In this document: positions 4,095 through 17,942 of the stretch, piece after piece
Layout: every line of letters begins with the position of its first letter
Numbering within the stretch: position 1 is the first letter of the stretch
DNA from: an uncultured Acidobacteriia bacterium
Lineage (GTDB): Bacteria; Acidobacteriota; Terriglobia; Bryobacterales; Bryobacteraceae
Direction of reading: 5' to 3'
DNA: 64,000 bases
NCBI GenBank assembly: GCA_903929755.1
Contig: CAIYVZ010000001.1
Span: 1-64,000 of the forward strand
Program-made: the position numbers and the translations under genes
The notes under the pieces: generated by a model
Told to the model about the DNA's origin: nothing
What the model saw: the letters and a program-made list of their open reading frames with translations, nothing else
Database searches by the model: none

Positions 4095-5465
4095 ATGAGC
4101 ACGCGCCGCAATTTTCTAATGGGTGCCGCATCCGCCACGGCGCTTTCCGCCGCGCAGGGACAGGCGGTCAAGCCGAATATTATTTATCTGCACTCCCACG
4201 ATTCCGGCCGCTATCTCCAGCCCTTCGGCCATGCCGTGCCGACGCCGAATCTGCAGCGCCTGGCGCGCGAGGGGGTGCTCTTCCGGCAGGCTTTCAGCGC
4301 GGCACCTACGTGCTCGCCGAGCCGTTCCGCGTTGCTCACTGGCCAGTGCCCGCATCGCAACGGGATGCTCGGTCTTGCCCACCGCGGCTTCCGCATGGAC
4401 GACTACAACAGGCACATTCTGCATACCTTGCGCCCGGCCGGTTATTATTCGGTGCTGGCTGGTTTACAGCACATTGCGGCCGATGCCGCTGTCCTCGGGT
4501 TTGACGAAGTATTGAAACCGAAGTCGACCATGGCCGCAGCTGTGACTCCGGGCGCGGTTGAGTTCCTGAACCGTGCGCACAGTGCCCCGTTCTTTCTCGA
4601 CGTCGGATTCTTTGAGACCCACCGCGAGTATCCCGCGCCCACTACCGCCGACGATCCGCGCTATACCCTGCCTCCCGCGCCAATACCTGATACGCCGGAG
4701 ACACGCCTCGATACCGCCGGGTATCATTCGAGTGCGCGCAATCTGGACCACGCGGTCGGCCAGATCCTGGATGCGCTCGATCGCAACGGACTTACAGGCA
4801 ACACAATCGTAATCAGTACCACAGACCACGGCGTCGCTTTTCCTCTGATGAAGTGCAATCTGGAAGACAGCGGCTGGGGCGTTTCGCTGATTATGCGCGG
4901 TCCCGGCGGATTCACCGGCGGGAAGGTGATCGACGCTTTGATCTCGCAGCTGGATATTTATCCGACGCTTTGCGATCTGGTCGGGGTGGCGCATCCAGCG
5001 TGGCTGGAAGGCAAGTCCATGATGCCGATTATTCGCGGCGAGGCGAAAGAGATCAATGAAGAGATCTTCGCCGAGGTGACTTATCATGCGGCTTACGAAC
5101 CCAAACGTGCGGTCCGAACGCGGGGCTGGAAGTACATTCGCCGCTTCGGCGATAAACACACGCCGGTACTTCCGAACTGCGACGATGGCCTGAGCAAGAG
5201 TCTCTGGCTGGAATACGGCTGGAAGAATATGCGCCTGCCGGAAGAGAGCCTGTACAACCTCATCTTCGACCCTCACGAACAGAACAATCTCGCCACTGAC
5301 CCCGGATCGCAAGTCATGCTGAAAGAAATGAGCGGACGCCTTGATGGTTGGATGCGCCGCACCGACGACCCGCTGCTAAAGGGCCCCGTACCCGCACCGC
5401 ACGGGTCGCAGGTCAATAATCCCGAGGGCCTTTCGCCGAGGGAGATACCGGACAAGGTGGCGTAA
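4095..5465 (+). CDS. Tat-exported sulfatase (arylsulfatase family)
   Basis: A 456-residue enzyme of the formylglycine-dependent sulfatase family, which hydrolyses sulfate esters or sulfamates. The N-terminus is a Tat signal (MSTRRNFLMGAASATALSAA). The signature C-S-P-S-R at residues 73-77 holds the cysteine that the maturase converts to formylglycine, and LLTG follows as in the family. The usual metal-binding DD near the N-terminus reads HSHD-S-G here, which resembles the heparan N-sulfatase-like branch. Other active-site pieces are STTDHG near residue 240 and DPHEQNNLA near the C-terminus, typical of bacterial sulfatases. No maturase gene is visible in the window. The substrate is unknown. 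An orphan Tat signal stub follows 11 bp downstream. Confidence 0.88.
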   Translation: MSTRRNFLMGAASATALSAAQGQAVKPNIIYLHSHDSGRYLQPFGHAVPTPNLQRLAREGVLFRQAFSAAPTCSPSRSALLTGQCPHRNGMLGLAHRGFRMDDYNRHILHTLRPAGYYSVLAGLQHIAADAAVLGFDEVLKPKSTMAAAVTPGAVEFLNRAHSAPFFLDVGFFETHREYPAPTTADDPRYTLPPAPIPDTPETRLDTAGYHSSARNLDHAVGQILDALDRNGLTGNTIVISTTDHGVAFPLMKCNLEDSGWGVSLIMRGPGGFTGGKVIDALISQLDIYPTLCDLVGVAHPAWLEGKSMMPIIRGEAKEINEEIFAEVTYHAAYEPKRAVRTRGWKYIRRFGDKHTPVLPNCDDGLSKSLWLEYGWKNMRLPEESLYNLIFDPHEQNNLATDPGSQVMLKEMSGRLDGWMRRTDDPLLKGPVPAPHGSQVNNPEGLSPREIPDKVA

Positions 5466-5476
5466 CAGTCCAGTCC

Positions 5477-5584
5477 ATGCTCACAAACATTTCCAGACGC
5501 GACCTGTTGGGATCGCTCGGCGCGCTCACAGCCGCCGGAGCTGCTGCCCAGTCCGACGCAGCCTCCAGCCGTATTGCCCCGTAA
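5477..5584 (+). pseudogene. Orphan Tat signal peptide stub (truncated exported protein)
   Basis: A 35-codon open frame starts at ATG 5477 and stops at TAA 5582. It reads as little more than a Tat signal: NISRRDLLGSLGALTAAGAA, then a few polar residues. Twin-arginine, hydrophobic stretch and an A-x-A-like region are all present, but no mature domain follows. The simplest reading is that the gene originally downstream of the sulfatase was deleted, leaving its export signal. It could still be translated with the sulfatase. Confidence 0.5.
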
Positions 5585-5644
5585 CGCAGATTTGAGGCCC
5601 CGCGGGGAGCGTTGCCCATCGTGAACGGGGCCTGTGCAGAAGCT

Positions 5645-5675
5645 GGTTGGCCAGGCGCAGCACGCCTGGCCAACC
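5645..5675. terminator. Perfect 13-bp hairpin between convergent genes
   Basis: GGTTGGCCAGGCG at 5645-5657 is exactly complementary to CGCCTGGCCAACC at 5663-5675, with a 5-nt loop. It lies between the sulfatase/stub (plus) and the PEP-CTERM gene (minus), where a bidirectional terminator would be expected. There is no T-run on either side, so an mRNA 3'-end protector or a factor-assisted terminator is as likely as an intrinsic one. Confidence 0.45.
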
Positions 5676-5710
5676 AAGTGACCTATTGATTCCGGCAGGT
5701 GGTGGACGCG

Positions 5711-6376
5711 CTACGTCTTCTTGCGGAATGCGCAGCCAAGTACGGCCAGGCCCGCGCCCATCAGGACGGCTGCGGCCGGTTCGGGGGTGGCGCTGCCAGA
5801 ACTGCCGGTGCCCTCGAAGCGCAGGTTGTCGAAGACGTAGTTGAAGGTGCTGGAGGGAGAGGAATTGGGGTGATACGAGATATCAAGGACCGCAATATCG
5901 GTGGCTTCCTCGAGGCCAGCAAATCCCGCCAGTCCAGCAGGGACCGTTGCCCCGACAAAATTTTGGGTTTCGAGCAGAGCGTTCGAACCGTCGTAGGCCG
6001 CCATCGTGAAGAAACTATCGAGGGACAGTCCGAAATCCATCCCAACCCGATTCACCGGCACGGAAAAAGAGAGGAGCAGGTGCGGGAAATTTCCTCCGCC
6101 GCCCTGGTTGACGAACACTGCGTTGGGCAGCGAGGCGGACGGCAGCAAGGTTGCGAGGTAAGTATTCGCCGTCGCCGTGGCATTACTGAAGGTTACGCCC
6201 TGCCCGGCATATTGATTGGTTACTACGTCTCCACATCCCAGGCAGGAATCGCCAGTCAGGCCGTCGAAGTTGATGACTGTGGCGCTGCCCGAGAATCCGC
6301 CCACTCCGATGGTTCCTGCGTGTAGTACAGAAAGCGACAGGATTGCGCCCATCGCGACACAGATAGTTTTCTTCAT
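5711..6376 (-). CDS. PEP-CTERM sorting domain protein
   Basis: A 221-residue secreted protein. It has an N-terminal signal peptide (MKKTICVAMGAILSLSVLHAG), a beta-rich middle with GLTGDSCLGCGDVVTNQYAG and Asn/Gly-rich strands, and a C-terminal PEP-CTERM tail at about 197-221 (PEPAAAVLMGAGLAVLGCAF then RKK). That tail is recognised by exosortase and is usual in polysaccharide-producing Gram-negatives. The middle resembles PEP-CTERM lectin-like or choice-of-anchor proteins. A clear AGGAGAACC ribosome site precedes the ATG at 6376. No exosortase is seen in this window. The function is surface or matrix related by analogy only. Confidence 0.85.
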   Translation of the reverse strand: MKKTICVAMGAILSLSVLHAGTIGVGGFSGSATVINFDGLTGDSCLGCGDVVTNQYAGQGVTFSNATATANTYLATLLPSASLPNAVFVNQGGGGNFPHLLLSFSVPVNRVGMDFGLSLDSFFTMAAYDGSNALLETQNFVGATVPAGLAGFAGLEEATDIAVLDISYHPNSSPSSTFNYVFDNLRFEGTGSSGSATPEPAAAVLMGAGLAVLGCAFRKKT

Positions 6377-6457
6377 AGTGTTGGTTCTCCTGTGGCCTAA
6401 TCAGGCCAATTTTTCTGAGATTGTACCATCTCTCGCCAACGAAGTTGTGCGTGGAGA

Positions 6458-6580
6458 ATTGCGCGGAAGTTGCTGGCACAGGAAGAGCCGGGGAGCGGGA
6501 GCAGGGGGTTTGGGTTGATGCCGGCGATTCGTTTGGCTCGGGCGGCGAAGACGGCGATGGAGGGGCGGGCGGGGCGGTGA
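6458..6580 (+). pseudogene. Decayed 3' copy of the HEAT-repeat gene
   Basis: This 41-codon piece reads IARKLLAQEEP then GSGSRGFGLMPAIRLARAAK and ends in the same A-K-T-A-M-E-G motif and stop as the intact HEAT gene at 2967-3692. Relative to the intact gene it lacks roughly 100 bp between two AGCCGGGG repeats, which suggests a slippage or recombination deletion that kept the frame. An in-frame TGA lies 48-50 bp upstream and there is no start codon, so it is not expressed as a protein. Confidence 0.7.
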
Positions 6581-6589
6581 CGCTGCGGG

Positions 6590-7051
6590 TCACTTCGCGC
6601 GGTAGATCGTCTTGTAACCGCCGTGGATTCCCCAGCCGATGCCGAGGCCAATGGCCGCTCCGATGGCGGTTCCGGCGGCGGTGACGGCGGCTTTGTCGGC
6701 TTGGCCTTCGTTGGAGAGATACGCTCCGATGGCGGCTCCGGCGGCGAGGCCTCCCGCTGCTCCGATGGCGGTTCCGACGATTCTGCCGGTGTTGGAACTG
6801 TTTTGTTTAGTACCTACGGTGGCGATTTCAGGGCGAGGGATGGTTACCTCGCCCTTTTTCGTTTGGACCGTGATGGCATCGGGCGTGGAGGCTGTGAATT
6901 GGCCATGGATTTCGCTCCCGGTTTTGCGGGTGACTTCGATGGCTTCACCTTTCTTCAGCGCGGCGAGGTTGTCCCACGAGGTCAGGTCCTTTGCTTGCGC
7001 GGACAGGACGAGAGCGACGATGAGTGCCGGGACGAGGGCGAGTTGCCTCAT
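6590..7051 (-). CDS. Exported glycine-zipper protein
   Basis: A 153-residue protein with a signal peptide ending near AQA-K (residues 19-21). It has a small beta domain with a QTKKGEVTIPRPEIATVG segment (about 62-83), and then a glycine-zipper membrane-like region (about 88-145) rich in small residues: GRIVGTAIGAAGGLAAGAAI and GTAIGAAIGLGIGWGI. The N-terminal part resembles bacterial Sm-like or PRC-like surface domains. It starts 3 bp after the bcp stop and closes the gatB-bcp operon. A role in outer-membrane insertion or stress is inferred from the zipper only. Confidence 0.75.
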   Translation of the reverse strand: MRQLALVPALIVALVLSAQAKDLTSWDNLAALKKGEAIEVTRKTGSEIHGQFTASTPDAITVQTKKGEVTIPRPEIATVGTKQNSSNTGRIVGTAIGAAGGLAAGAAIGAYLSNEGQADKAAVTAAGTAIGAAIGLGIGWGIHGGYKTIYRAK

Positions 7052-7053
7052 CG

Positions 7054-7503
7054 TTAGAGAGCTCCGAGAACCTCTTCGGCGTGGCCTTCGGGCTTCACCT
7101 TGTCGAAGATTTTGGTGATGACGCCGTTTTCGATGACGAAGGTGGTGCGGGCGACGCCCATCACCTTTTTGCCGTACATGTTCTTTTCCTTCATGACGAA
7201 GTAGGCGTTGGCGATTTCCTTTTCGGCGTCGGCGAGAAGGGTGAAGGGGAAGTTGAACTTTTCTTTAAACTTCGCCTGCGCCTTGGGGGTGTCAGGGGAG
7301 ACTCCGATGATGGTGGCGCCTTTGGACTGGAATTTCTTAACGGTGTCGCGGAATTCACAGCTCTCGATGGTGCAGCCGGGGGTATCGGCGCGGGGATAGA
7401 AGTAGAGAACGATGCGCTCGCTTTGGTGCTGGGCGAGGTCGAATTCTTCTCCCGAGTCGGTCAGAACTTTGAACAGGGGTGCTTTGTCGCCTTCTTTGAG
7501 CAT
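7054..7503 (-). CDS. bcp: Thioredoxin-dependent peroxiredoxin, BCP/PrxQ type
   Basis: A 149-residue thiol peroxidase that reduces hydrogen peroxide and organic hydroperoxides using thioredoxin. The active-site segment PRADTPGCTIESCEFRD carries the peroxidatic cysteine in TPGCT and the resolving cysteine five residues later, which is the PrxQ/BCP arrangement. Length and the conserved ending (GVARTTFVIENGVITK) are normal for the family. An AAGGA ribosome site lies about 10 nt before the ATG. It starts 12 bp after gatB and is followed 2 bp later by a glycine-zipper gene, so all three probably share one transcript. Confidence 0.95.
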   Translation of the reverse strand: MLKEGDKAPLFKVLTDSGEEFDLAQHQSERIVLYFYPRADTPGCTIESCEFRDTVKKFQSKGATIIGVSPDTPKAQAKFKEKFNFPFTLLADAEKEIANAYFVMKEKNMYGKKVMGVARTTFVIENGVITKIFDKVKPEGHAEEVLGAL

Positions 7504-7515
7504 GTTGTTTGTTCC

Positions 7516-8979
7516 TTAGCCTAATTTAGCTTTTACGAGGTCGTTGACCACGGCGGGGTTGGCCTGGCCGCGGGAGTTCTTCATGACCTGGCCGACGAAG
7601 AAGCCCATGAGGGCGACGCGGCCAGCCCGGTAGTCGGCTGCCTGTTTGGGATTGGCGGCGATGATTTCGTCGATCATACGTTCCAGTTCCCCGGTGTCGC
7701 TGATGGTTTTGAGACCCTCGCGTTCTACGATGACGGCGGCGGGGTCTCCCGATTCAAACATTTTGGGGAGAACATCTTTGGCGAGTTTGCCGGTGAGTTC
7801 CCCTTTGACGACGAGAGCGACGAGTTCGCCGAGGTGCTGGGCGGAGACGGGGGAGTTTTCGACGTCTTTGTTGGAGGCTTTGAGGAGCGCGGCGAGGTCG
7901 CCCATGACCCAGTTGGCGGCGATTTTTGGGTCGCCGGCGACTTTGGCGACAGCTTCGAAGTAGTCGGCGAGGGGCCGGTTGGCGGTGAGGACCTGGGCGT
8001 CGTATTCCTTGAGGCCGAATTCGGTGGCGAAGCGGACGCGGCGGAGGGAGGGGAGCTCGGGCATGGTGGCTCTGACGGACCCCAGCCATTTTTCGCCGAT
8101 TTTGAGGGGCGCGAGGTCGGGTTCGGGGAAGTAGCGGTAGTCGTGGGCCTGTTCTTTGGAGCGCATGCCGACGGTGATGCCGAGGTCGGAGTTGAAGAGG
8201 CGGGTTTCCTGATGGATGGTGCCGCCGCCTTCGATGACGCCGACCTGGCGGGCGATTTCGTAGTCGATGGCTTCGCGGAGGAAGCGGAAGGAGTTCAGAT
8301 TCTTGATTTCGACTTTGGTGCCGAGTTCTTTTTGGCCCCAGAGACGGACAGAGACGTTAGCGTCACAGCGGAGGTGGCCTTTTTCCATGTCGCAGGTGGA
8401 GGCTTCGACGAACTGGATGCTTTGTTTGAGTTCGGTGAGGTAGGCGAAGGCTTCATCGGAGGAGCGCATGTCGGGCTCGCTGACGATTTCGATGAGGGGC
8501 GTACCGCTGCGATTGAGGTCTACGTAGGTGTATTTTGCGGAATCGCGGAAGCCTTCGTGGAGGCTCTTGCCTGCGTCGTCTTCCATGTGGACGCGGGTGA
8601 CTTTAATGCGTTTTGGTTCGCCGTTGACGACGACATCGACGTAGCCCCATTCGGCGAAGGGAAGGTCGAATTGGGAAATCTGGTAGCCCTTGGGGGAATC
8701 GGGGTAGAAGTAGTTCTTGCGGGCGAAGACGGAGACGGGGCGAATTTCGCAGTTGAGGGCGAGGGCGCCGCGGATGGCGAGTTCGACGGCCTGGCGGCTG
8801 AGGACGGGAAGCGCGCCGGGGAGACCGCAGCAGACCGGGCAGACGTTAGAGTTCGGCGCGGCGCCGAAGCTGGTAGGGCAGCCGCAGAAAATTTTGGTGC
8901 GTGTGGCAAGCTGGACATGGACTTCCAGGCCGATTACCGATTCGTACTTCTTTATAAGTTCGGGGGAAGCGATCTCCAT
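7516..8979 (-). CDS. gatB: Asp-tRNA(Asn)/Glu-tRNA(Gln) amidotransferase subunit B
   Basis: A 487-residue subunit B of the GatCAB complex, which converts misacylated Glu-tRNA(Gln) or Asp-tRNA(Asn) into the correct species. The family start YESVIGLEVHVQL lies at about 10-22. The zinc-binding cysteines CGCP and CPVCCG follow, then the cradle-domain sequence PKGYQISQFDLPFAEWG. The C-terminal YqeY-like tail ends in RGQANPAVVNDLVKAKLG. Length is normal. gatA and gatC are not in the window. The start has no Shine-Dalgarno, but a TATCCT hexamer 7 nt upstream suggests a leaderless transcript. Confidence 0.97.
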   Translation of the reverse strand: MEIASPELIKKYESVIGLEVHVQLATRTKIFCGCPTSFGAAPNSNVCPVCCGLPGALPVLSRQAVELAIRGALALNCEIRPVSVFARKNYFYPDSPKGYQISQFDLPFAEWGYVDVVVNGEPKRIKVTRVHMEDDAGKSLHEGFRDSAKYTYVDLNRSGTPLIEIVSEPDMRSSDEAFAYLTELKQSIQFVEASTCDMEKGHLRCDANVSVRLWGQKELGTKVEIKNLNSFRFLREAIDYEIARQVGVIEGGGTIHQETRLFNSDLGITVGMRSKEQAHDYRYFPEPDLAPLKIGEKWLGSVRATMPELPSLRRVRFATEFGLKEYDAQVLTANRPLADYFEAVAKVAGDPKIAANWVMGDLAALLKASNKDVENSPVSAQHLGELVALVVKGELTGKLAKDVLPKMFESGDPAAVIVEREGLKTISDTGELERMIDEIIAANPKQAADYRAGRVALMGFFVGQVMKNSRGQANPAVVNDLVKAKLG

Positions 8980-8986
8980 CCCTATA

Positions 8987-8992
8987 AGGATA
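8987..8992 (-). promoter_or_regulatory. Putative -10 box of gatB (leaderless start)
   Basis: On the minus strand TATCCT sits 7 nt before the gatB ATG, and no purine-rich ribosome site intervenes. The spacing puts transcription start at or within a base or two of the ATG. The same TANNNT-ATG layout recurs at several other genes here. Confidence 0.45.
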
Positions 8993-9078
8993 ACGGCTGG
9001 GCGGACGGGGACAGAAATTTGACAACACGTTCACAACTTGCAGGGCTGAATTTGGTCTCATACAGTTTGAGGTTCCTG

Positions 9079-10002
9079 ATGAAATTCGTCGTCGCGTTGG
9101 GTCTGTGCCTGCCGTTTCTGGTAGTTGCACAAGTGCCTTCGGCTGAAAAAAACACTTTTGTGGGAGGTACGCCCTGCCGGATGTGCCATCCGGACGTTTG
9201 GCTGAACTTCAATAAGAATCCGCACTTTAAGTCGATTGCTTCGGGCAAGGAAGTGCCGGAGAACACGGGGTGCGAAGGTTGCCATGGCGCGGGCGGCAAC
9301 CATGTGGCGGCGAAAGGCGGGAAGGCGACGATAAAGGCGTTTTCGCAGTTTTCGCCGGAGCAGACGCTGGATGCGTGCCTGCGGTGCCACTCGAAGGACG
9401 TTTCGAGGGCGGGGATTCGGGAGTCGGCGCATACGGAGGCGGATGTGGTTTGTACGAATTGCCACTCGGTGCATAAGCCGGCGACGCCGAAGTTTTTGCT
9501 GGCGAAGCAGCAGACGCAGCTTTGTTATCAGTGCCATACGACGGTACGAGGGCAGTTTGAAATGCCTTCGAAGCACCGGGTGAACGAGGGGGCGGTGCAG
9601 TGCACGGATTGCCATAATCCGCACGGGAATACGGCTCCGACATGGCGGACGGGGACGGGGTCGCGACTGGTTACGACGGCGCATGACAATGAGCAGCCGT
9701 GTTTGAAGTGCCATGTGGACAAGCGCGGGCCGTTCGTTTATGAACATGCCAGTTTGCGGATTGAAGGGTGCGACACGTGCCATTCGCCGCACGGGTCACC
9801 GAACGCGAAGCTGCTGAAGAGGCCGGTGGTGTTTACGCTTTGCCTCGAATGCCACACCGGCGCGGGGACGTTTGGGCGGCAGACGACAGGAGTGCGGATT
9901 CAGTCGAGTTCGCATAACCTGCTGGATCCGAAGTACCAGCGATGCACGCAGTGCCATGTGCGGATTCATGGTTCGAACAGCGATGAGAGGTTCCTGAGAT
10001 GA
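9079..10002 (+). CDS. Decaheme c-type cytochrome, MtrA/DmsE-like
   Basis: A 307-residue periplasmic cytochrome. I chose ATG 9079 because it opens a signal peptide (MKFVVALGLCLPFLVVAQV) just before the first heme site; the frame is open further upstream, antisense to gatB. Ten CxxCH heme-binding motifs occur, starting at residues 33, 65, 100, 125, 149, 175, 208, 231, 255 and 289. Ten hemes in about 300 residues is the size and count of MtrA, PioA and DmsE, which carry electrons through an outer-membrane porin. The next gene overlaps by 4 bp and encodes a barrel of MtrB type, which supports a trans-outer-membrane conduit. No MtrC/OmcA-type surface cytochrome or CymA-type quinol oxidase gene is adjacent. 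The direction of electron flow cannot be told from sequence. Confidence 0.9.
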   Translation: MKFVVALGLCLPFLVVAQVPSAEKNTFVGGTPCRMCHPDVWLNFNKNPHFKSIASGKEVPENTGCEGCHGAGGNHVAAKGGKATIKAFSQFSPEQTLDACLRCHSKDVSRAGIRESAHTEADVVCTNCHSVHKPATPKFLLAKQQTQLCYQCHTTVRGQFEMPSKHRVNEGAVQCTDCHNPHGNTAPTWRTGTGSRLVTTAHDNEQPCLKCHVDKRGPFVYEHASLRIEGCDTCHSPHGSPNAKLLKRPVVFTLCLECHTGAGTFGRQTTGVRIQSSSHNLLDPKYQRCTQCHVRIHGSNSDERFLR

Positions 10003-11963
10003 GAAGGCTAGCTTGTGTTTTGTGGGTCTTCCCTGCCCTCTTGGCGGCTCAGGAGACGGTGGCTCCGACGGTTGACGAGAAGGTGGGGTCGGCGAGGGGC
10101 GCGAACAAGGGCGATTTCAATATTGTTCAGAGCTGGGAACTGGGGTATCGCTTCAATTCGGTGGGGGGCGACGCGGGCAAGTACCAGAGCGATGTGAATT
10201 ACCGGAACGGCGTGCGGCTGCTGTCGGGATCACTGAATGTGAATTCGAAGGACGGCAAGGGTAAGTGGTTCGACGAGTTTGTGCTGTCGACGCAGGGTTT
10301 GGGGAATGATCCGTATGAATCGGCGACGATTCGGCTGCAGAAGAACCGCTGGTATCGGTACGACTTGTTGTGGCGGCAGAACGATTACCGGAATCCGGGG
10401 CTGACGACCGGGCAGCAGTTGCAGAATACGACGCATCGGTGGCAGGACCATGATCTGACATTGTTTCCGCAGAGCCATTTCCGGGTTCGCGCTGGGTATT
10501 CGCGAGTGAAGCAGACGGGGCCGGCGCTGACGACGGAGCAGTTGTTTGACACGCGGAGCAACGTGGTTTCGATCTTCCGGAATGTGGCGCGGCAGTTTGA
10601 CGATTACCGGGTGGGCGGGGACGTGGATTTTAAGGGTTTCCGGCTGACGGTACAGAAGCGCTGGGAGTTCTATAAGGAAGACACGAAGGACGGGCCGGGG
10701 AGCGGGATCGCTTTTGCGCGGTCGGAGCCATATCGGGGGCAGACGGGCGGCTGGATGGGGAATCTGTTCGGCGAGCGACGGCTGTTGGTGGTAAATGCGC
10801 GGTACACGTATGCCTCGACGGTGGGGGATTTCGTGCAGAACGAGTCGGCGATCGGGCTGGATCGGTTTGGGGCGGCGGCGAACCGGCAGGTGATGGTGAG
10901 CGGACGAGGGAATCGGCCAGTGACTTCGGGGGATTTCAGCTTGACGTTGCTACCGCATTCGAGGGTGACGATTATTAACCATACGTCGGCTTCCAGCAGC
11001 AGGATGGTGGGGAATAACTACTTCCAGCAGTTTGATAATTCGACGTTTTCGTTCTCGACGCTGGCGTTCAATTCGCTGACGTTGCGGTTGGTGACGAATG
11101 CGACGGATGTGCGGTTCCGGGTGTCGAAGAAGCTGGATTTTACGGGTGGGTTTCGATATTCGGACCGGTATATCCAGTCGATTGAGAACAGCACGTCGCC
11201 GGGGACTCCGTGGTTCGGAGTGACGGCGGAACAGACGAACAGGACGAAGGCGGGTGTGGTGGGCGTGAACTGGCTGGCGACGAAGAATCTGCGGATCCAT
11301 GCGGAATCGGAGTTCGGGAATAACGATAATCCGTTTACGCCGGTGAGTTTGCGGGATTACCATTCGGTGCGGGCCCGGGCGCAGTATCGGACGAAGAAGT
11401 TCACGCTGGGCGCGGCTTACGGGGACAACTACAACGCGAATTCGGTGGCGATTACGGCTTACAGTTCGCGGGCGCGAAACTATTCGGGTGAGGGGTCGTG
11501 GGCGGTGCGTTCGTGGGTTTCGGTGGATGGGGCGTGGTCGAAGCTGCATACGGATACGGCGGGAGGGATTAATTTCTTTGCCGGGGCTCCGCGGGCGACT
11601 TTGGTGAGCGGGCTGGATTCGATCTACGTGAGCAATTTGCACGCGGCGAATGTGGGGGTGCGGCTTGCGGTGAAGAAGTACGCGGATCTTTATTTGGGGT
11701 ACAACATTACCAGGGATACGGGGGATGGGCGGAGTTCTTTAGCGGCTCAGCCTACGGCGGGGGCCCAAGTGTTTTATAACGTGCAGACATTCCCTTTGAC
11801 GTTCCAGACTCCTTTGGTGCGGTTGTCGGTGCGGGTGACGGATAAGCTGCGGTGGAATGCCGGGTGGCAGTATTACGGGTATCAGGAGCAGTTCGGGGTA
11901 CTGGGGATGAACCAGGGCTACCGGGCGAATACGGGGTATACGAGTTTGTTGTGGGCGTTTTAG
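9999..11963 (+). CDS. MtrB/PioB-like outer-membrane beta-barrel protein
   Basis: A 654-residue protein with a signal peptide (LACVLWVFPALLAAQ) followed by long alternating aromatic/polar strands, as in a large beta-barrel. It ends in phenylalanine (SLLWAF), the usual C-terminal signal for outer-membrane insertion by the BAM complex. Typical strand text is WYRYDLLWRQNDYRNPG and FTLGAAYGDNYNAN. MtrB-family porins are about 650-750 residues and sheathe a decaheme cytochrome, which matches the overlapping upstream gene (ATGA overlap). The N-terminal CxxC of some MtrB proteins is not present. Assignment to this family rests mainly on barrel character, size and partner, because barrel sequences diverge quickly. 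Confidence 0.75.
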   Translation: MRRLACVLWVFPALLAAQETVAPTVDEKVGSARGANKGDFNIVQSWELGYRFNSVGGDAGKYQSDVNYRNGVRLLSGSLNVNSKDGKGKWFDEFVLSTQGLGNDPYESATIRLQKNRWYRYDLLWRQNDYRNPGLTTGQQLQNTTHRWQDHDLTLFPQSHFRVRAGYSRVKQTGPALTTEQLFDTRSNVVSIFRNVARQFDDYRVGGDVDFKGFRLTVQKRWEFYKEDTKDGPGSGIAFARSEPYRGQTGGWMGNLFGERRLLVVNARYTYASTVGDFVQNESAIGLDRFGAAANRQVMVSGRGNRPVTSGDFSLTLLPHSRVTIINHTSASSSRMVGNNYFQQFDNSTFSFSTLAFNSLTLRLVTNATDVRFRVSKKLDFTGGFRYSDRYIQSIENSTSPGTPWFGVTAEQTNRTKAGVVGVNWLATKNLRIHAESEFGNNDNPFTPVSLRDYHSVRARAQYRTKKFTLGAAYGDNYNANSVAITAYSSRARNYSGEGSWAVRSWVSVDGAWSKLHTDTAGGINFFAGAPRATLVSGLDSIYVSNLHAANVGVRLAVKKYADLYLGYNITRDTGDGRSSLAAQPTAGAQVFYNVQTFPLTFQTPLVRLSVRVTDKLRWNAGWQYYGYQEQFGVLGMNQGYRANTGYTSLLWAF

Positions 11964-12191
11964 GCGGGGGGCTGGATTAGCGGGCGCAGGAGTACGACGA
12001 AGTCGGGCACCACCAGGCTCAGGGTGGAGCGTAACTGATCGGAACTGCGTCCCCGGTCGGCTGATTGTTGGCTCAGGGTTGCGAGCACCCGAGTTTGTTC
12101 CGCGTGCCCTAAAGCGCGAGCACCCCATGGCCCGTACATTATCGTGTAGGGGATCGATGCCGAATTTATCCATATATTTCGTGTAGTCCAC
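11960..12191 (-). pseudogene. Decayed minus-strand gene remnant, unidentified
   Basis: The gap before purQ (11964-12262) holds coding-like minus-strand text in two frames. From 12191 the peptide begins [20 protein letters not shown] 59-codon frame then runs from ATG 12139 to TAA 11960-11962, with segments HAEQTRVLATLSQQSADRG and DQLRSTLSLVVPDFVVLLRP, and ends PLIQPPA. The switch of frame suggests a frameshifted relic, although the second part could be a short real gene. I cannot name the family. Its stop overlaps the stop of the barrel gene. Confidence 0.35.
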
Positions 12192-12262
12192 GCTGCGGAA
12201 AGCCGATTGCAGTAAAGTTCTCCCGACGCTGCCCTCCCCGCCTGTTAGACTGGAGATTCCCC

Positions 12263-12961
12263 ATGAAAGTCGGAGTCGTTGTCTTCCCAGGCAGCAATTG
12301 TGACCACGACGCGTGGTACGCCATCAACAAAAATCTGAACCGGCCAGGGCAGAACGTTGCCAGCGCTGAGTTTATCTGGCACGACGCCCATTCGGTCGGC
12401 CAAGTGGACGCAGTGATTCTGCCGGGTGGATTTTCGTACGGTGACTACCTGCGGTGCGGTGCCATTGCTCGCTTTTCGCCTGTAATGCAGGCGGTTCAGA
12501 AATTCGCAGCCGACGGCGGTCTCGTCCTCGGCATTTGCAACGGCTTCCAGATTCTGGTTGAAGCCGGGTTGCTGCCAGGAGCTCTGATCCGCAATGCGGG
12601 CCTGAGGTTCATTTGCAAGGAAGTGGGGCTCGAGACCGTTACGACGGCTTCTCCGTTCACTTCCACGCTGCAGAAGGGGGAGACGCTGCACCTTCCGATT
12701 GCGCATGGCGAAGGGCAGTACATCGCCGATGAGCGAACGCTGGATGAACTGGACGCGGAAGACCGCGTGGCGTTCCGGTATACGGAAAATCCGAATGGCT
12801 CGATGCGGGACATTGCGGGTATTTTGAATGCCGGACGGAATGTTCTGGGCATGATGCCTCATCCGGAACGTGCTTGTGATCCTCTTGTGGGTTCCACTGC
12901 GGGCCTTGCGATCTTTGAGTCCATGTTGGGAGCCGTCGTGTCTGGAGAAAGAGCCAAGTGA
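12263..12961 (+). CDS. purQ: Phosphoribosylformylglycinamidine synthase, glutaminase subunit
   Basis: A 232-residue class I glutamine amidotransferase that supplies ammonia for step 4 of purine synthesis (FGAR to FGAM). The PurQ opening [14 protein letters not shown] is present. The nucleophile elbow [11 protein letters not shown] places the catalytic cysteine at residue 92, and [11 protein letters not shown] near the C-terminus supplies the His/Glu pair. Length matches stand-alone PurQ of the PurSQL complex. Its stop overlaps the GTG start of purL (GTGA). The purS subunit normally required by this type is not adjacent. A TAGACT box lies 11 nt before the ATG, with a weak GGAG between them. 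Confidence 0.97.
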
Positions 12962-15186
12962 CGATCACTCCGGAAATCATCAAGCACCACCAACTGACAC
13001 AGGGCGAGTTCGACAAGATCGTCTCTCTGCTGGGCCGGCAACCGAGCTACACGGAACTGGGCGTATTCAGTGTGATGTGGAGCGAGCATTGCTCTTATAA
13101 GAGCTCGCGGATCCACCTGAAGAAGCTGCCGATTACGGGCAAGTACGTGGTACAGGGTCCGGGCGAGAACGCCGGAATTATCGGCATTGGCGACGGCTGG
13201 GTGGTGGCGTTCAAGATTGAATCGCACAATCACCCGAGCTACATTGAGCCTTTCCAGGGCGCGGCGACGGGCGTGGGCGGCATTCTGCGCGACATCTTTA
13301 CGATGGGCGCGCGACCGATCGCGGTACTGGATTCGCTGCGATTTGGGCCTTTGACCGGCAGCGCGGTGGCGGAGCGGAATGCCCGCATTGTGGCTGGAGT
13401 GGTTTCGGGGATTGCGCACTACGGCAACTGCTTTGGCGTGCCTACGGTGGGTGGCGAGTGCATTTTTGAAGAGTGCTACTCGGGCAATCCTCTGGTGAAT
13501 GTATTTGCGCTGGGTGTCTGCAGGCAGGAGGACGTGTTCTTTGCGAAGGCGAAGGGCATTGGGAATCCTGTGATTTATGTAGGCGCGAAGACGGGCCGGG
13601 ACGGGATACATGGCGCATCGATGGCGTCGGCCGAGTTCACGGAAGAATCGAAGCAGAAACGGCCGAACGTGCAGGTGGGCGATCCATTCATGGAAAAGCT
13701 ACTGCTGGAAGCCTGCATTGAAGCGATGAAGACAGGCGCGATTGTGGCGATCCAGGACATGGGCGCGGCGGGTTTGACGTCGTCTTCATGCGAAATGGGC
13801 AGCCGCGGTGAAGTGGGGATCGAGATCGATCTTGATCTGGTGCCACAGCGCGAAACGGGCATGACGGCTTACGAGATGCTGCTTTCCGAGTCACAGGAAC
13901 GCATGCTGATTGTGGCGGAAAAGGGTCGCGAGCAGGAACTGTTTGACGTGTTCCACAAGTGGGGCCTGGACGCGGTGACGATTGGCTCGGTGACCGAGGG
14001 CGGCAATCTGCGGATTACGCACAAAGGCGTGGTGGAAGCGGATATTCCGAACCGCGCGCTGGCCGATGAGGCTCCGAAGTATGACCGTCCGCATGATGTG
14101 CCTCCGCACCGGACGGCGCCGCTGGAAGCTCAGGCGTTTGCGGCGTCGGCGGATCTGAATGCCGACCTAATGAAATTAGTGTCTTCTGCCGATCTTTGTT
14201 CCAAGAGATGGATCTGGGAACAGTACGATTATCAGGTTCGGACGAATACACTGGCTGGGCCGGGTGGCGATGCGGCGATTGTTCGTGTGAAGGAAACCGG
14301 GCAGTCGATTGCGATGTCGCTGGACGGGAATGGGCGGTATTGTTTCCTCGATCCCCGTGAAGGTGCGAAGCTGGCGGTGGCGGAAAGCTGCCGGAACCTT
14401 TCTACCGTTGGAGCGCTGCCGGTGGCGGCGACGAACAACCTGAACTTTGGCAACCCGGAGCGCCCGGAAATTATGGCGCAGCTGGTGGAAGCGGTGGAGG
14501 GCATTGCCGAGGCGTGCAGCTTCTTCGACGCGCCGATTACGGGCGGGAACGTGAGTCTGTACAACGAAACACTGGGCGAAGGGATTTATCCGACGCCTGT
14601 ACTGGGTGTGGTGGGCATTCTGAAGACGGAAATGCCGGTCGGGAGCCTGTTCCGGAGTGTTGGGACGGATCTGGTGCTGGTGGGCGGCTTTGGGACAATG
14701 GACGGGCAGCGATTTGGGTCGAGCCAGTACGCGAAGCAGGTTCTGGGGCAGTTGTGGGGTTTGCCACCGGCTCTGGATATGGCTTACGAGAAGCGGGTTC
14801 ACGAGGCCATGCGTGAGATCGCTTTGCTGCATCTTGCTGAATCGGCTCATGATTTGAGCGATGGTGGTTTGGCTGTAGCGTTGGCTGAGTCTTCGACGCC
14901 TGAAGTTGGGGCGAAGGTGACGATGGCGGGTGGGTTGCGGCCTGAGTTTGCATTGTTTGGAGAAGCGCCGTCGCGGATCCTGGTATCGACGAAGCAGGCC
15001 GAACAAATCCTTGTAATTTTGTCGCGTCACGAAGTCCAGGGCGGCGTAATTGGAGTTACAATCGGAGAGCGGTTACAAATCGAAGACGAGGGGAAGAATA
15101 TGCTCATCAACGTCAGCACCGCTTCACTACGAGATTCGTCCGAAGCCGCACTGCCTGCTTTACTCCATACCCAACATGCCGTTTAA
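12958..15186 (+). CDS. purL: Phosphoribosylformylglycinamidine synthase, large synthetase subunit
   Basis: A 742-residue ATP-dependent synthetase subunit of small-PurL type, which needs PurQ and PurS. It starts with GTG at 12958 inside the purQ stop codon, so translation is coupled. Family landmarks are [20 protein letters not shown] near residue 35, the ATP/metal site [20 protein letters not shown] near 85, and [16 protein letters not shown] near 265. A second copy of the AIR-synthase fold contains [16 protein letters not shown] and [15 protein letters not shown]. Length fits the family (about 720-750). The last 11 bp overlap the purF start. Confidence 0.97.
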
Positions 15187-16624
15187 TCCTGACGAGCTTT
15201 TTCTTGATGTAGATCAGTTCGACAAGCTGCACGAAGAGTGCGGAGTGGTGGCGATTTACGGCCATCCGGAAGCCTCGAAGCTGGCGTATCTGTCGTTGTA
15301 CGCCTTGCAGCACCGTGGCCAGGAATCGGCCGGCATCTCCGCGAGCGACGGGACGGTAATCCGGACCGAGAAGCAGATGGGGCATGTGGCGGAAATCTTC
15401 ACGAACCCCGTGCTGGCGCAACTGCCAGGGACGATGGCCATTGGCCATACCCGGTATTCGACGGCGGGCGACACGGTAGAACTGAATGCTCAGCCGTTTT
15501 CGGTTCACTGCAACAAGGGTTTGATTGCGGTGGCGCACAACGGCAATATCACGAATGCGAGCGAAATCCGGAAGGATCTGGAAGCTCGCGGGTCGATATT
15601 CCAGGCTTCGAGCGATACGGAAGTGATTCTGCATCTGGTGGCGCATTCGCGGGAGAAGACTCTCGCGGGAGCCCTTCGGGAGGCGTTACTTCTACTGGAA
15701 GGCGCGTTTTCATTAGTCTTTTTGGCGCAGGACCGAATTATTGTGGCCCGCGACCCGCATGGCTTCCGACCTTTGGCAATGGGCCAGTTGGAAGTGAGCG
15801 GAAAGCCTGCGTATGTGTTTGCTTCGGAGACGTGCGCTTTCGATCTGCTGAATGCGGTGTACCTGAACGATGTGCAGCCGGGCGAGATGGTGATTGTGGG
15901 CCCGGAAGGCGTGTCTCGGGAGCGGTATGCTCCGTCGCAGCGCAAGGCGCATTGCGTCTTCGAGCATGTTTACTTCTCGCGGCCGGATTCGCTGGTATTT
16001 GGACGCAGCGTTCAGACTTCGCGTGAGCTGATGGGTGTTTTGCTGGCTCGTGAGGCTCCGGCGGATGCGGATATTGTGGTGCCGGTGCCGGATTCGGGCA
16101 ATGCCGCAGCCTTGGGTTACGCAGGTGAGAGCGGCTTGCCTTACCGCCAGGCTCTGATTCGGAATCACTATGTGGGGCGGACGTTTATTGAGCCGAACCA
16201 GGCGATTCGCGATTTCGGGGTGAAGCTGAAGTTGAACCCGATTCGCAGTTTACTGGAAGGGAAGAGCGTTATCCTGGTGGACGATTCCATTGTCCGCGGG
16301 ACGACGAGCCGGAAGATTGTGCGGATGGTTCGGCAGGCGGGGGCGCGTGAGGTCCATATGCGGATTTCTTGTCCTCCGACGGTGTCGCCTTGTTTCTATG
16401 GCGTGGATACGCCGAACAAGAGTGAACTGATTGCGGCGAACAGCACGATTGAAGAGATTCGCCGGTTCATTGAGGCGGATTCTTTAGCGTATCTGTCGCA
16501 GGAATCGCTTTCGCGAGCGGTTGCCGACGACCATAGCGAGTATTGCTACGCGTGCTACACGGGGAACTATCCCACGGACTTTGTGAATATCGAACAACTG
16601 GTCCGCGCTGGCCGTAAGGGGTAG
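15176..16624 (+). CDS. purF: Amidophosphoribosyltransferase (Fe-S type)
   Basis: A 482-residue enzyme for the first step of purine synthesis (PRPP plus glutamine to phosphoribosylamine). The ATG at 15176 was chosen because it leaves a short propeptide of 21 residues before the nucleophile in [10 protein letters not shown] (Cys22). That peptide must be cleaved to expose the cysteine, as in Bacillus PurF. The N-terminal glutaminase shows HTRYSTAG and NGNITN. The C-terminal PRTase shows the PRPP loop [18 protein letters not shown]. The cysteines in [17 protein letters not shown] and YCYACYTG match the 4Fe-4S ligands of the Bacillus-type enzyme. It overlaps purL by 11 bp and ends the operon at a strong terminator. 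Confidence 0.97.
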
Positions 16625-16644
16625 CCTGGCGTATTTTTAGTTAG

Positions 16645-16691
16645 AAAAACACCGCAGCGGCTGCCTGGCAGTTCTGCGGTGTTTTTTTTTT
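16645..16691 (+). terminator. Rho-independent terminator of the pur operon
   Basis: ACACCGCAG at 16649-16657 pairs with CTGCGGTGT at 16674-16682 around a 16-nt loop, followed by a run of nine or more T to about 16691. It lies 20 bp after the purF stop. This is the clearest intrinsic terminator in the window. Confidence 0.92.
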
Positions 16692-16715
16692 GCGCTTTGA
16701 GCTATTAGTGATCGA

Positions 16716-16894
16716 ATTCGCGGGCTGCCGAGCGGCGGCGGGATTCGCCAGAAGTACGGGAACCCGTGCACATTGACGATGTGGCGGTGGCTTTTCCGGA
16801 TTTGAAGATCACTCTGGCGCATCCGTCATTCCCGTGGCAGGAAGCGATCTCGGTTTGCCTGCATAAGCCGACGGTGTACATTGATCTCTCAGGA
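16716..16894 (+). pseudogene. Frameshifted fragment of an amidohydrolase (amidohydrolase 2 family)
   Basis: Two adjoining frames together spell a piece of a TIM-barrel amidohydrolase. The first is IRGLPSGGGIRQKYGNP, starting near 16716. After a missing base near 16765 comes VHIDDVAVAFPDLKITLAHP followed by SFPWQEA and KPTVYIDLSG, to about 16894. The segment resembles the family's NP-x-x-DDVAV-x-FPDLKI-x-x-AHP region just before the conserved GSDYP. Both ends are missing. It is a dead remnant between the pur operon and the next gene, and no other gene is seen in this gap. Confidence 0.7.
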
Positions 16895-16988
16895 TGCGAA
16901 TACGCAGCTGAAACACTAAGGTATTGTTCGGGTAGGTTCGGCCTTTGATTTTACGGGAGAATGCAATGAAACTGTTTGGACTAAGCGC

Positions 16989-17942
16989 ATGAGTTTACCG
17001 GGTGTTCTCTCGCGGCTGCGACTGCCCGTGGTGGGCGCGCCGCTGTTCGTGATCTCGAATCCGGACCTGGTGATTGCGCAGTGTACGGCGGGCATTGTGG
17101 GCGCGTTTCCTTCGCTGAATGCGCGACCTGTTTCGCTGTTAGATGAATGGCTGCACCGCATCACCGAAACGCTGGCGGCGTGGGACAGAGCACATCCGGA
17201 GACGCCTGCCGCTCCGTTCGCAGTGAACCAGATTGTGCACCGGAGTAATAACAGGCTGGAACAGGATCTGGAGTTATGCGGGAAGTGGAAAGTTCCAGTG
17301 GTGATTACGTCACTGGGGGCTCGCGAGGAACTGAATCAGGCGGTGCATTCGTGGGGCGGGATTACGCTGCATGACGTGATCAATAATCGGTTCGCGCACA
17401 AGGCGATTGAGAAGGGCGCGGATGGTTTGATTGCAGTGGCGGCGGGTGCCGGTGGCCATGCGGGGACGATTTCTCCGTTCGCTTTGATTTCGGAGATCCG
17501 GGCATGGTTTTCGGGGCCTTTGGCGCTGTCGGGTTCGATCGCGAATGGACGATCGATATTGGCGGCGCTGGCGCTGGGGGCGGATCTGGCCTATATTGGG
17601 TCGGCGTTTATTGCGACGAAAGAAGCGAATGCGGTGGAGGCCTATAAACAGGCGATTGTGGATGCCACGGCGGACGATATTATTTACACGAATCTGTTCA
17701 CGGGCGTGCATGGGAATTACCTGAAGCCTTCGATCCTGGCGGCGGGTTTAGACCCGGAACATCTGCCGGAGAGCGACCCTTCGAAGATGAGTTTCGCTTC
17801 GGGTGGAGAGAGTGCGGCGAAGGTCTGGAAGGACATCTGGGGTTGCGGCCAGGGCATTGGGGCGATTCACGATGTACCGGGTGCGGCGGAGCTGATCGCG
17901 AGACTGGGCAAAGAATATCAGGAGGCTCGAGCGGCGCTATGA
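16989..17942 (+). CDS. Nitronate monooxygenase / 2-nitropropane dioxygenase family flavoprotein
   Basis: A 317-residue FMN-dependent TIM-barrel protein. The N-terminus LPVVGAPLFVISNPDLVIAQ and the phosphate-binding loop GADGLIAVAAGAGGHAGTIS (about 137-158) are diagnostic of the NPD/NMO family. LALGADLAYIGSAFIATKEA near 195 is the conserved second FMN-phosphate region. The family oxidises alkyl nitronates or related flavin substrates, and many members have unknown substrates. Its stop overlaps the pobA start (CTATGA), so the pair is co-transcribed. This hints at a role in aromatic or nitro-compound breakdown, but the true substrate is not evident. Confidence 0.9.
   Translation: MSLPGVLSRLRLPVVGAPLFVISNPDLVIAQCTAGIVGAFPSLNARPVSLLDEWLHRITETLAAWDRAHPETPAAPFAVNQIVHRSNNRLEQDLELCGKWKVPVVITSLGAREELNQAVHSWGGITLHDVINNRFAHKAIEKGADGLIAVAAGAGGHAGTISPFALISEIRAWFSGPLALSGSIANGRSILAALALGADLAYIGSAFIATKEANAVEAYKQAIVDATADDIIYTNLFTGVHGNYLKPSILAAGLDPEHLPESDPSKMSFASGGESAAKVWKDIWGCGQGIGAIHDVPGAAELIARLGKEYQEARAAL

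Follow-up and report, generated by a model that had tools for sequence, protein, structure and literature searches.

Introduction

Can a decaheme cytochrome and an outer-membrane barrel, encoded side by side with neither a surface cytochrome nor a dedicated quinol-fed cytochrome next to them, carry electrons across the outer membrane on their own? The question is raised by a locus in an uncultured acidobacterium of the order Bryobacterales (GenBank assembly GCA_903929755.1, contig CAIYVZ010000001.1), of which positions 1 to 64,000, hereafter the window, were analyzed. The original prediction, made from the letters of this stretch, had pointed to an MtrAB-like pair at positions 9079-11963. Here, we report that the two genes, as judged from sequence comparison and structure models, encode a real porin-cytochrome pair, conserved among relatives, in which the barrel is a diverged one of the MtrB type; the pair is mostly found away from MtrC genes, and its function is deduced from these features. 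The pair probably acts as a stand-alone conduit of the MtrAB type that exchanges electrons with extracellular compounds on one side and with the periplasmic pool of c-type cytochromes on the other.

Related genes in the class Acidobacteriia have already been published, namely homologs of PioA and MtoA (PMC10654088), decaheme sequences of Solibacter (PMC3669403) and the Group 5 MtrCAB clusters (PMC8805035). Full-text literature searches, covering listings and selected passages and not extending to subscription papers or supplements, turned up no account of an MtrAB pair that stands alone and is widely conserved in Bryobacterales.

Results and discussion

A decaheme cytochrome of the MtrA/DmsE type

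The pair and its parts are laid out in the window as follows.

9079..10002, + strand: decaheme c-type cytochrome of the MtrA/DmsE type, putatively periplasmic; 307 amino acids (aa), ten CxxCH motifs
9999..11963, + strand: MtrB-type outer-membrane barrel, 26 strands (predicted); 654 aa, C-terminal Phe
9999..10002, + strand: ATGA start/stop overlap of 4 base pairs (bp), read from the sequence
10173..10193, + strand: codons of a short helix, residues 59-65, between barrel strands 1 and 2 (structure model)

The coordinates, both lengths, the overlap and the terminal Phe agree with what had been claimed, and so do the ten CxxCH motifs of the cytochrome, which lie at residues 33, 65, 100, 125, 149, 175, 208, 231, 255 and 289; among 20,000 shuffles of its residues, the maximum was three motifs and none reached ten. 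Both proteins have a signal-like N-terminus, judged by eye. The ATGA overlap suggests translational coupling of the two genes, and the spacing of -4 recurs in several relatives.

The cytochrome passes the model of the DmsE family, the check that had been proposed for it, with 261.6 bits over a cut-off of 192.2 (TIGR03508; expect value (E) 7e-78; residues 30-302 of 307). Its best sequence match in the PDB is chain A of entry 6r2q, MtrA of Shewanella baltica (E 1.4e-34; as a profile, 1.2e-51), and the likeness extends along the length of the decaheme protein. The PDB sequence library labels this chain 'Cystathionine beta-synthase', although the entry is the Mtr complex. MtrA was also the sole match better than E 0.001 when the model of the cytochrome was used in a structure search.

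The heme ligands are conserved. In an alignment of 75 sequences, all ten CxxCH motifs are invariant together with exactly ten other histidines (residues 49, 75, 118, 132, 166, 182, 223, 238, 279 and 297), which is the number required for ten bis-histidine hemes, as in the Mtr complex (PMC7198977). Eight of these ten extra histidines remain invariant in a more diverse set of 30 sequences from the phylum, and H132 and H279 are each kept in at least 90%. We infer that the cytochrome is loaded with ten bis-histidine c hemes.

An MtrB-type barrel missed by sequence models

The barrel has no match in Pfam or NCBIfam at E up to 1, so that the search against PF11854, proposed as a check of the MtrB assignment, fails when taken alone; the gathering cut-off of that family (23 bits) is not reached. 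Nor was a sequence relative found in the PDB, even with a profile of 64 sequences, and a scan of viral contigs with the barrel returned none. The scans of Pfam, NCBIfam and the PDB by themselves would have left an 'unknown barrel', a reading that was overturned by profile-profile and structure comparison.

A comparison profile was built from 25 of the 30 phylum loci with barrels over the PF11854 cut-off. Aligned to it with hhalign, the profile of the present barrels gave a probability of 99.1 and a P of 1.3e-18 over 586 columns, and a more diverse profile, including the barrel of the separate MtrCAB cluster of this genome (contig C82, see below), gave a P of 1.5e-27. The control with TonB receptors (same genome, 11 of 14 loci) yielded a probability of 2.1 and a P of 0.023 over 62 columns, and PF11854 barrels compared with TonB receptors gave a P of 7.7e-6 over 184 columns. 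A small general barrel signal exists and is far weaker than the MtrB-type signal.

The structure model of the barrel, with a predicted local distance difference test score (pLDDT) of 86.1, has 26 long strands by hand count. Foldseek placed chain B of 6r2q, which is MtrB, first, with an E of 5.8e-15 and a template modeling score (TM) of 0.66, ahead of a runner-up at 6.4e-11 and 0.44. VIA-align gave the same chain a Z of 22.2, with a root-mean-square deviation of 3.3 Å over 554 residues of a target of 649 (runner-up, Z 16.6); sequence identity in the structure alignment is about 10%. The helix of residues 59-65 sits between strands 1 and 2 of the model, and an MtrB loop at the same place forms a helix that caps the channel (PMC7198977). 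By its predicted fold and its profile, the barrel is of the MtrB type, outside PF11854 as defined, and the two proteins appear to constitute an MtrAB-type porin-cytochrome conduit. The MtrAB-like reading of the original prediction is thus supported overall, by the MtrB fold in profile and structure comparison and by the DmsE-model match of the cytochrome.

A conserved two-gene unit

At least 80 loci were recovered from a scan of genome contigs, and 65 of them (L058-L122; 45-88% identity over the best segment of the cytochrome) were taken as the group of the window. Among these listed loci and the window, clustering places the barrel next to the cytochrome in 64 of 66; in L077 it was recognized on inspection, and L075 stops at a contig end. 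No other gene family is common to more than 14 of the 66, and a further open reading frame (ORF) of at least 100 aa with at least two CxxCH motifs was seen in only 2 of the 65 listed loci, within flanks of up to 6 kilobases (kb), often less. Since the pair is conserved as such in relatives, the two-gene unit is firmer than the original prediction could know.

Flanking genes were rejected as a clue to function: they reach at most 14 of 66 loci, and one such set consists of ORFs antisense to the cytochrome. In 14 of the 66 listed loci (for example, L070 8928-9245 and L074 8920-9228), the gene that immediately follows the barrel encodes a small hydrophobic protein of about 104 aa; the L070 copy is without a Pfam match, and no such protein was seen in the window.

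In a tree of 145 cytochromes, all 62 rows from two-gene loci, along with one identical extra row, form a single clade with a support of 100 in the Shimodaira-Hasegawa approximate likelihood ratio test (SH-aLRT). The titles in this clade are mostly Bryobacterales, Bryobacteraceae, Solibacteraceae or unclassified acidobacteria. Fourteen MtrC-linked cytochromes of the same order, including the C82 copy from the genome of the window, form a separate clade (SH-aLRT 98), and MtrA of S. baltica groups among the cytochromes linked to PF11854 barrels. The tree was made by a quick method, and some rows are long-branched. Along with alignments A3 and A4, it omits four of the 65 two-gene loci, with cut or unclear barrels (L075, L090, L119 and L120); the tree and A4 also omit L126 and L132 of the 15 other loci, of which A3 takes only two. 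The decahemes in the tree represent 27 of the 30 PF11854 loci, and 14 of the 20 MtrC regions gave a neighboring decaheme (L201 omitted). Three A1 rows are labeled MtrC-linked from a neighboring ORF, which for two of them (L039 and L055) is a fragment.

Two loci call for comment. The cytochrome of L086 (CALQCC020000007.1), a record titled Bordetella parapertussis, is identical to that of genome G187, which is of the family of the window, and the entry is probably a mislabeled metagenome bin. At G131:C107:17637-24192 (L031, L157), one contig encodes a barrel of the present family close to a PF11854 barrel, each with its own decaheme gene.

These data bear on an arrangement without any transmembrane wire, in which the cytochrome would carry or store electrons in the periplasm and the barrel would be a co-transcribed transport porin with no relation to it. 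That the barrel matches no MtrB sequence model would fit such an arrangement, which we nevertheless regard as very improbable: MtrB is the top structural match, with other barrels at a Z of 16.6 at most, the decaheme is MtrA-like over its length, the two genes are adjacent in 64 of the 66 listed loci, and in one genome (G371, below) an MtrC gene follows the pair.

Independence from MtrC and the NapC-type cytochrome

On another contig (C82; L040 8362-15062), the genome of the window also has consecutive genes for an OmcA/MtrC protein (TIGR03507, 471.4 bits), a decaheme of the DmsE type, a barrel, a tetraheme and a monoheme cytochrome. The window pair is 38% (cytochrome) and 22% (barrel) identical to the C82 copies and, because its cytochrome forms a clade of its own, the pair is by this phylogeny no remnant of the full MtrCAB of the genome. 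A candidate for an inner-membrane donor is encoded elsewhere in the same genome.

C67:47177-48781 (L153, L222): NapC-type cytochrome, 535 aa, five CxxCH motifs

The pair might therefore be a second conduit that shares these components, with the MtrC of C82 docked on the outside and the NapC-type protein of C67 feeding it, and with electrons flowing outward to Fe(III) or humics. The presence of both proteins in the genome agrees with such sharing, as does one genome of the order that combines the pair, two OmcA/MtrC matches and a NapC-type gene. The distribution of the genes across 150 genomes of the order allows the idea to be weighed. A barrel counted as strong at an E of 1e-60 or lower, a limit chosen once the list had been seen; the adjacent cytochrome was confirmed in the fetched loci, not in all strong-barrel genomes; and up to 7 candidates per genome were scored for OmcA/MtrC and up to 21 for PF03264.

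A strong barrel is present in 115 of the 150 genomes and OmcA/MtrC over the cut-off in 95; both occur in 74, the barrel only in 41, MtrC only in 21 and neither in 14. The pair is independent of MtrC (odds 1.20, p 0.69) and of the NapC-type cytochrome, which is found in 75 of 115 genomes with the strong barrel and 24 of 35 others (odds 0.86, p 0.84). The NapC-type protein itself, detected in 99 of the 150 genomes at E up to 1e-10, is tightly linked to MtrC, occurring in 90 of the 95 MtrC genomes as against 9 of the other 55 (odds 92, p 9e-24). In 43 of those 90 genomes, the two genes lie on one contig, within 5 kb of each other in 32 and farther apart in 11, and in 47 they lie on different contigs; L198 and L200 have the order MtrC, decaheme, barrel, tetraheme, pentaheme NapC-type. 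The 535-aa cytochrome is a likely inner-membrane donor of the Bryobacterales MtrCAB. According to PMC8805035, no inner-membrane quinone oxidoreductase is encoded close to MtrCAB in Group 5 clusters; if the NapC-type protein is such an enzyme, the 32 genomes that encode it within 5 kb of mtrC disagree with that statement.

MtrC and the NapC-type protein travel together, and the pair goes with neither; the usual outer partner and the NapC-type donor therefore seem to belong mostly to MtrCAB. The C67 cytochrome was accordingly rejected as donor of the pair, as it follows MtrC and not the pair. Of the 41 genomes that have a strong barrel but no MtrC over the cut-off, 27 show no match to the 535-aa NapC-type protein or to PF03264; these 27 include 16 with a completeness of at least 95% and one that consists of a single contig. 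From these patterns, the pair seems to manage without MtrC and a NapC-type donor.

A single genome, G371 (L230 2858-8361; G371:C584), shows a 10-heme OmcA/MtrC gene directly after the barrel of the pair, on the same strand and at a distance of 484 bp by match ends. It is the only one of the 115 strong carriers in which the barrel is close to MtrC over the cut-off, many of the contigs being short. The locus represents a three-gene version of the unit. Its gene order speaks for a tie between the pair and electron transfer, and it also speaks for sharing. The original description of a minimal two-gene version holds at the locus of the window; it does not extend to the genome, with its full MtrCAB on C82, or to G371, where MtrC follows the pair.

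The barrel of the model has short, near-neutral surface loops, a feature that is only suggestive, as the strand ends were taken from the model; those of MtrB are negatively charged and have been suggested to aid docking of the outer partner (PMC7198977). The net charge of the whole barrel was not used as evidence: the medians per 100 aa are 2.65 for two-gene and 1.02 for MtrC-linked barrels (p 0.02), but the values of the two groups overlap, and the C82 barrel, itself MtrC-linked, stands at 2.9. Taken with the independence of the pair from both genes, the isolated position of G371 and the low identity to the C82 barrel, the loops make sharing of MtrC and the NapC-type feed an unlikely account.

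Proposed mechanism and direction of electron flow

Building on the observed families, fold, conserved heme ligands and two-gene unit and, in the order sample, on the independence from MtrC and NapC-type genes, we infer the assembly, conduction and partners of the stand-alone pair as follows. The cytochrome would be exported and its ten bis-histidine c hemes attached, after which the decaheme protein would insert into the 26-strand barrel and form an insulated heme chain across the outer membrane, much as in MtrAB-type pairs, where the cytochrome is inserted in the barrel as an insulated wire (PMC7198977). Such a chain would need neither an MtrC-type surface cytochrome nor a dedicated quinol cytochrome of the NapC, CymA or ImcH type. 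On the outside, it would exchange electrons directly with extracellular compounds and, on the inside, with the general periplasmic pool of c-type cytochromes, a mode of exchange that has been proposed for PioAB and MtoAB. In the absence of MtrC, MtrAB is conductive in liposomes and reduces Fe(III) in S. oneidensis (PMC4245776), and PioAB functions without an apparent extracellular cytochrome (PMC6831781).

Conduits of the MtrAB kind can run in both directions, so that the sequence does not by itself settle the direction here. Reverse use of MtrCAB is mentioned in PMC6831781. Inward flow is slightly favored, a weak lean that stems from the many carriers with no recognized quinol-fed cytochrome; in this case, extracellular Fe(II), reduced humics or similar compounds would be oxidized and would feed a terminal oxidase. 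A stand-alone conduit could instead run outward, with a quinol donor of an unrecognized kind (for example, alternative complex III or a CbcL-type protein) passing electrons through periplasmic cytochromes and the pair to soluble or solid acceptors. Outward flow is compatible with the capacity of MtrAB alone to reduce extracellular Fe(III) and with the cultured Fe(III) reducer known in Bryobacterales, Paludibaculum fermentans P105T (PMC8407742). It also draws on related pairs in other families of the phylum: in L042, L044, L045, L046 and L048, such a pair lies near NapC-like 7-heme, nonaheme and monoheme cytochromes (PF03264 was tested for the 7-heme protein of L044, and similarity is present in all five loci), and the cytochrome maturation genes CcsB and ResB adjoin the cluster in L044. 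With 27 of the 41 carriers that lack MtrC over the cut-off showing no NapC-type cytochrome, outward flow through the present pair is possible and, in our estimate, somewhat doubtful.

Several observations weigh against the stand-alone conduit as proposed here. The structure model of the cytochrome is mediocre (pLDDT 69, with residues 189-275 below 50). The barrel passes no MtrB/PioB sequence model, and of the 64 members of the barrel alignment, 63 have no PF11854 match at E 0.1 and one matches at E 0.0014. Deletion of MtrC and its paralogs abolished Fe(III) reduction in Shewanella (PMC6831781). OmcA/MtrC is also encoded by 74 of the 115 carriers, including the genome of the window, where sharing is possible; 13 of the 41 'MtrC-less' carriers have a weaker match to the OmcA/MtrC model under the cut-off; and G371 speaks against a strict rule that the pair never uses MtrC. 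The lack of PF03264 matches in 27 carriers leaves other donors, such as the CbcL type or alternative complex III, which were not searched for. Finally, the five NapC-linked loci of other families suggest outward flow in those lineages.

Genomic neighborhood of the pair in the window

That no respiratory partner adjoins the pair, as had been noted, was confirmed by a Pfam scan of nine neighboring proteins (4095-17939), which found none. Upstream, the scan identified a sulfatase, an AhpC/TSA peroxiredoxin and GatB; downstream, it identified glutamine-amidotransferase, AIR-synthase-type and nitronate-monooxygenase-type proteins, the genes of which we take to be purQ, purL and purF. Two upstream ORFs on the - strand, 5714-6376 and 6593-7051, gave no family match at E 1e-5, and a simple promoter and terminator scan of the region found nothing. 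No DMSO reductase (molybdopterin reductase) is present among the nine neighbors, the rest of the genome not having been searched for one, and no OmcA/MtrC surface decaheme is encoded near the pair in the window, the MtrC of this genome being that of C82.

Within the window, two or more CxxCH motifs occur in just two ORFs of at least 100 aa, the decaheme cytochrome and a protein on the - strand at 24170-26170. The latter, which had been flagged as a second multiheme protein 12 kb away, is real, with seven CxxCH motifs followed by TPR repeats, and shows no sign of belonging to the pair. It is one of many partial matches to the DmsE model in large frames of this genome, in which the model has 20 matches in all.

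Implications

Bryobacterales are largely heterotrophic soil bacteria, common in soils and wetlands. Paludibaculum is among those common in wetlands (PMC8407742). The pair bears on how members of this order use outer-membrane electron transfer: if the proposed mechanism is correct, it might offer a route for drawing electrons from extracellular Fe(II), reduced humics or neighboring cells into the periplasmic pool and on to terminal oxidases. We suggest, tentatively, that most of the sampled genomes of the order might keep such a private wire, without a surface cytochrome or a quinol-fed NapC-type cytochrome and apart from MtrCAB. Because the MtrB/PioB sequence model in current use does not recognize the barrel, annotation by that model misses it. 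A cultured carrier, isolate F-183, makes the role of the pair testable.

Comparison with known systems

The window cytochrome belongs to a family named after DmsE of the Shewanella DmsEF system, which differs from the present locus in that no DMSO reductase gene is found among the nine scanned neighbors. The likeness to OmcK (GSU2203) and GSU2204 of Geobacter sulfurreducens is partial: NF041028, the model of the GSU2203 family, matches the cytochrome with 216.4 bits, under its cut-off of 325, and NF041027, that of the GSU2204 family, matches 21 of the 64 sequences of the barrel alignment at E up to 0.1 (best, 8.2e-7) but misses the window barrel, which has no CXXCH motif and a single cysteine, residue 6. 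GSU2204 has been called an MtrB/PioB-family barrel (PMC13188914), and the genes for GSU2203 and GSU2204 are up-regulated with iron-oxide minerals (PMC4070692).

The Group 5 MtrCAB clusters of Bryobacterales and unclassified Acidobacteriia (PMC8805035) are matched by the C82 cluster, down to the tetraheme gene downstream of mtrB, whereas the window pair falls in a separate clade, is only distantly similar to the C82 copies and comes with neither MtrC nor a tetraheme. In Shewanella MtrAB (6r2q), MtrA ranks first for the cytochrome by both sequence and structure, and MtrB ranks first for the barrel by structure, with 26 strands and a helix after strand 1; this system differs in the low identity of its barrel, which no sequence search connects to that of the window, in the MtrC alongside and in its place on a separate branch of the tree.

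With PioAB of Rhodopseudomonas palustris TIE-1 and MtoAB of Sideroxydans lithotrophicus ES-1, the comparison is by description only, not by the sequences of PioA, PioB, MtoA or MtoB. No PioC, CymA/ImoA or MtoD-like gene was seen beside the window pair, and PioA is a protein of 540 aa with an N-terminal extension (PMC6831781) that is absent from the window cytochrome. Both systems likewise consist of a decaheme cytochrome and an MtrB-type barrel without MtrC (PMC6831781, PMC8805035).

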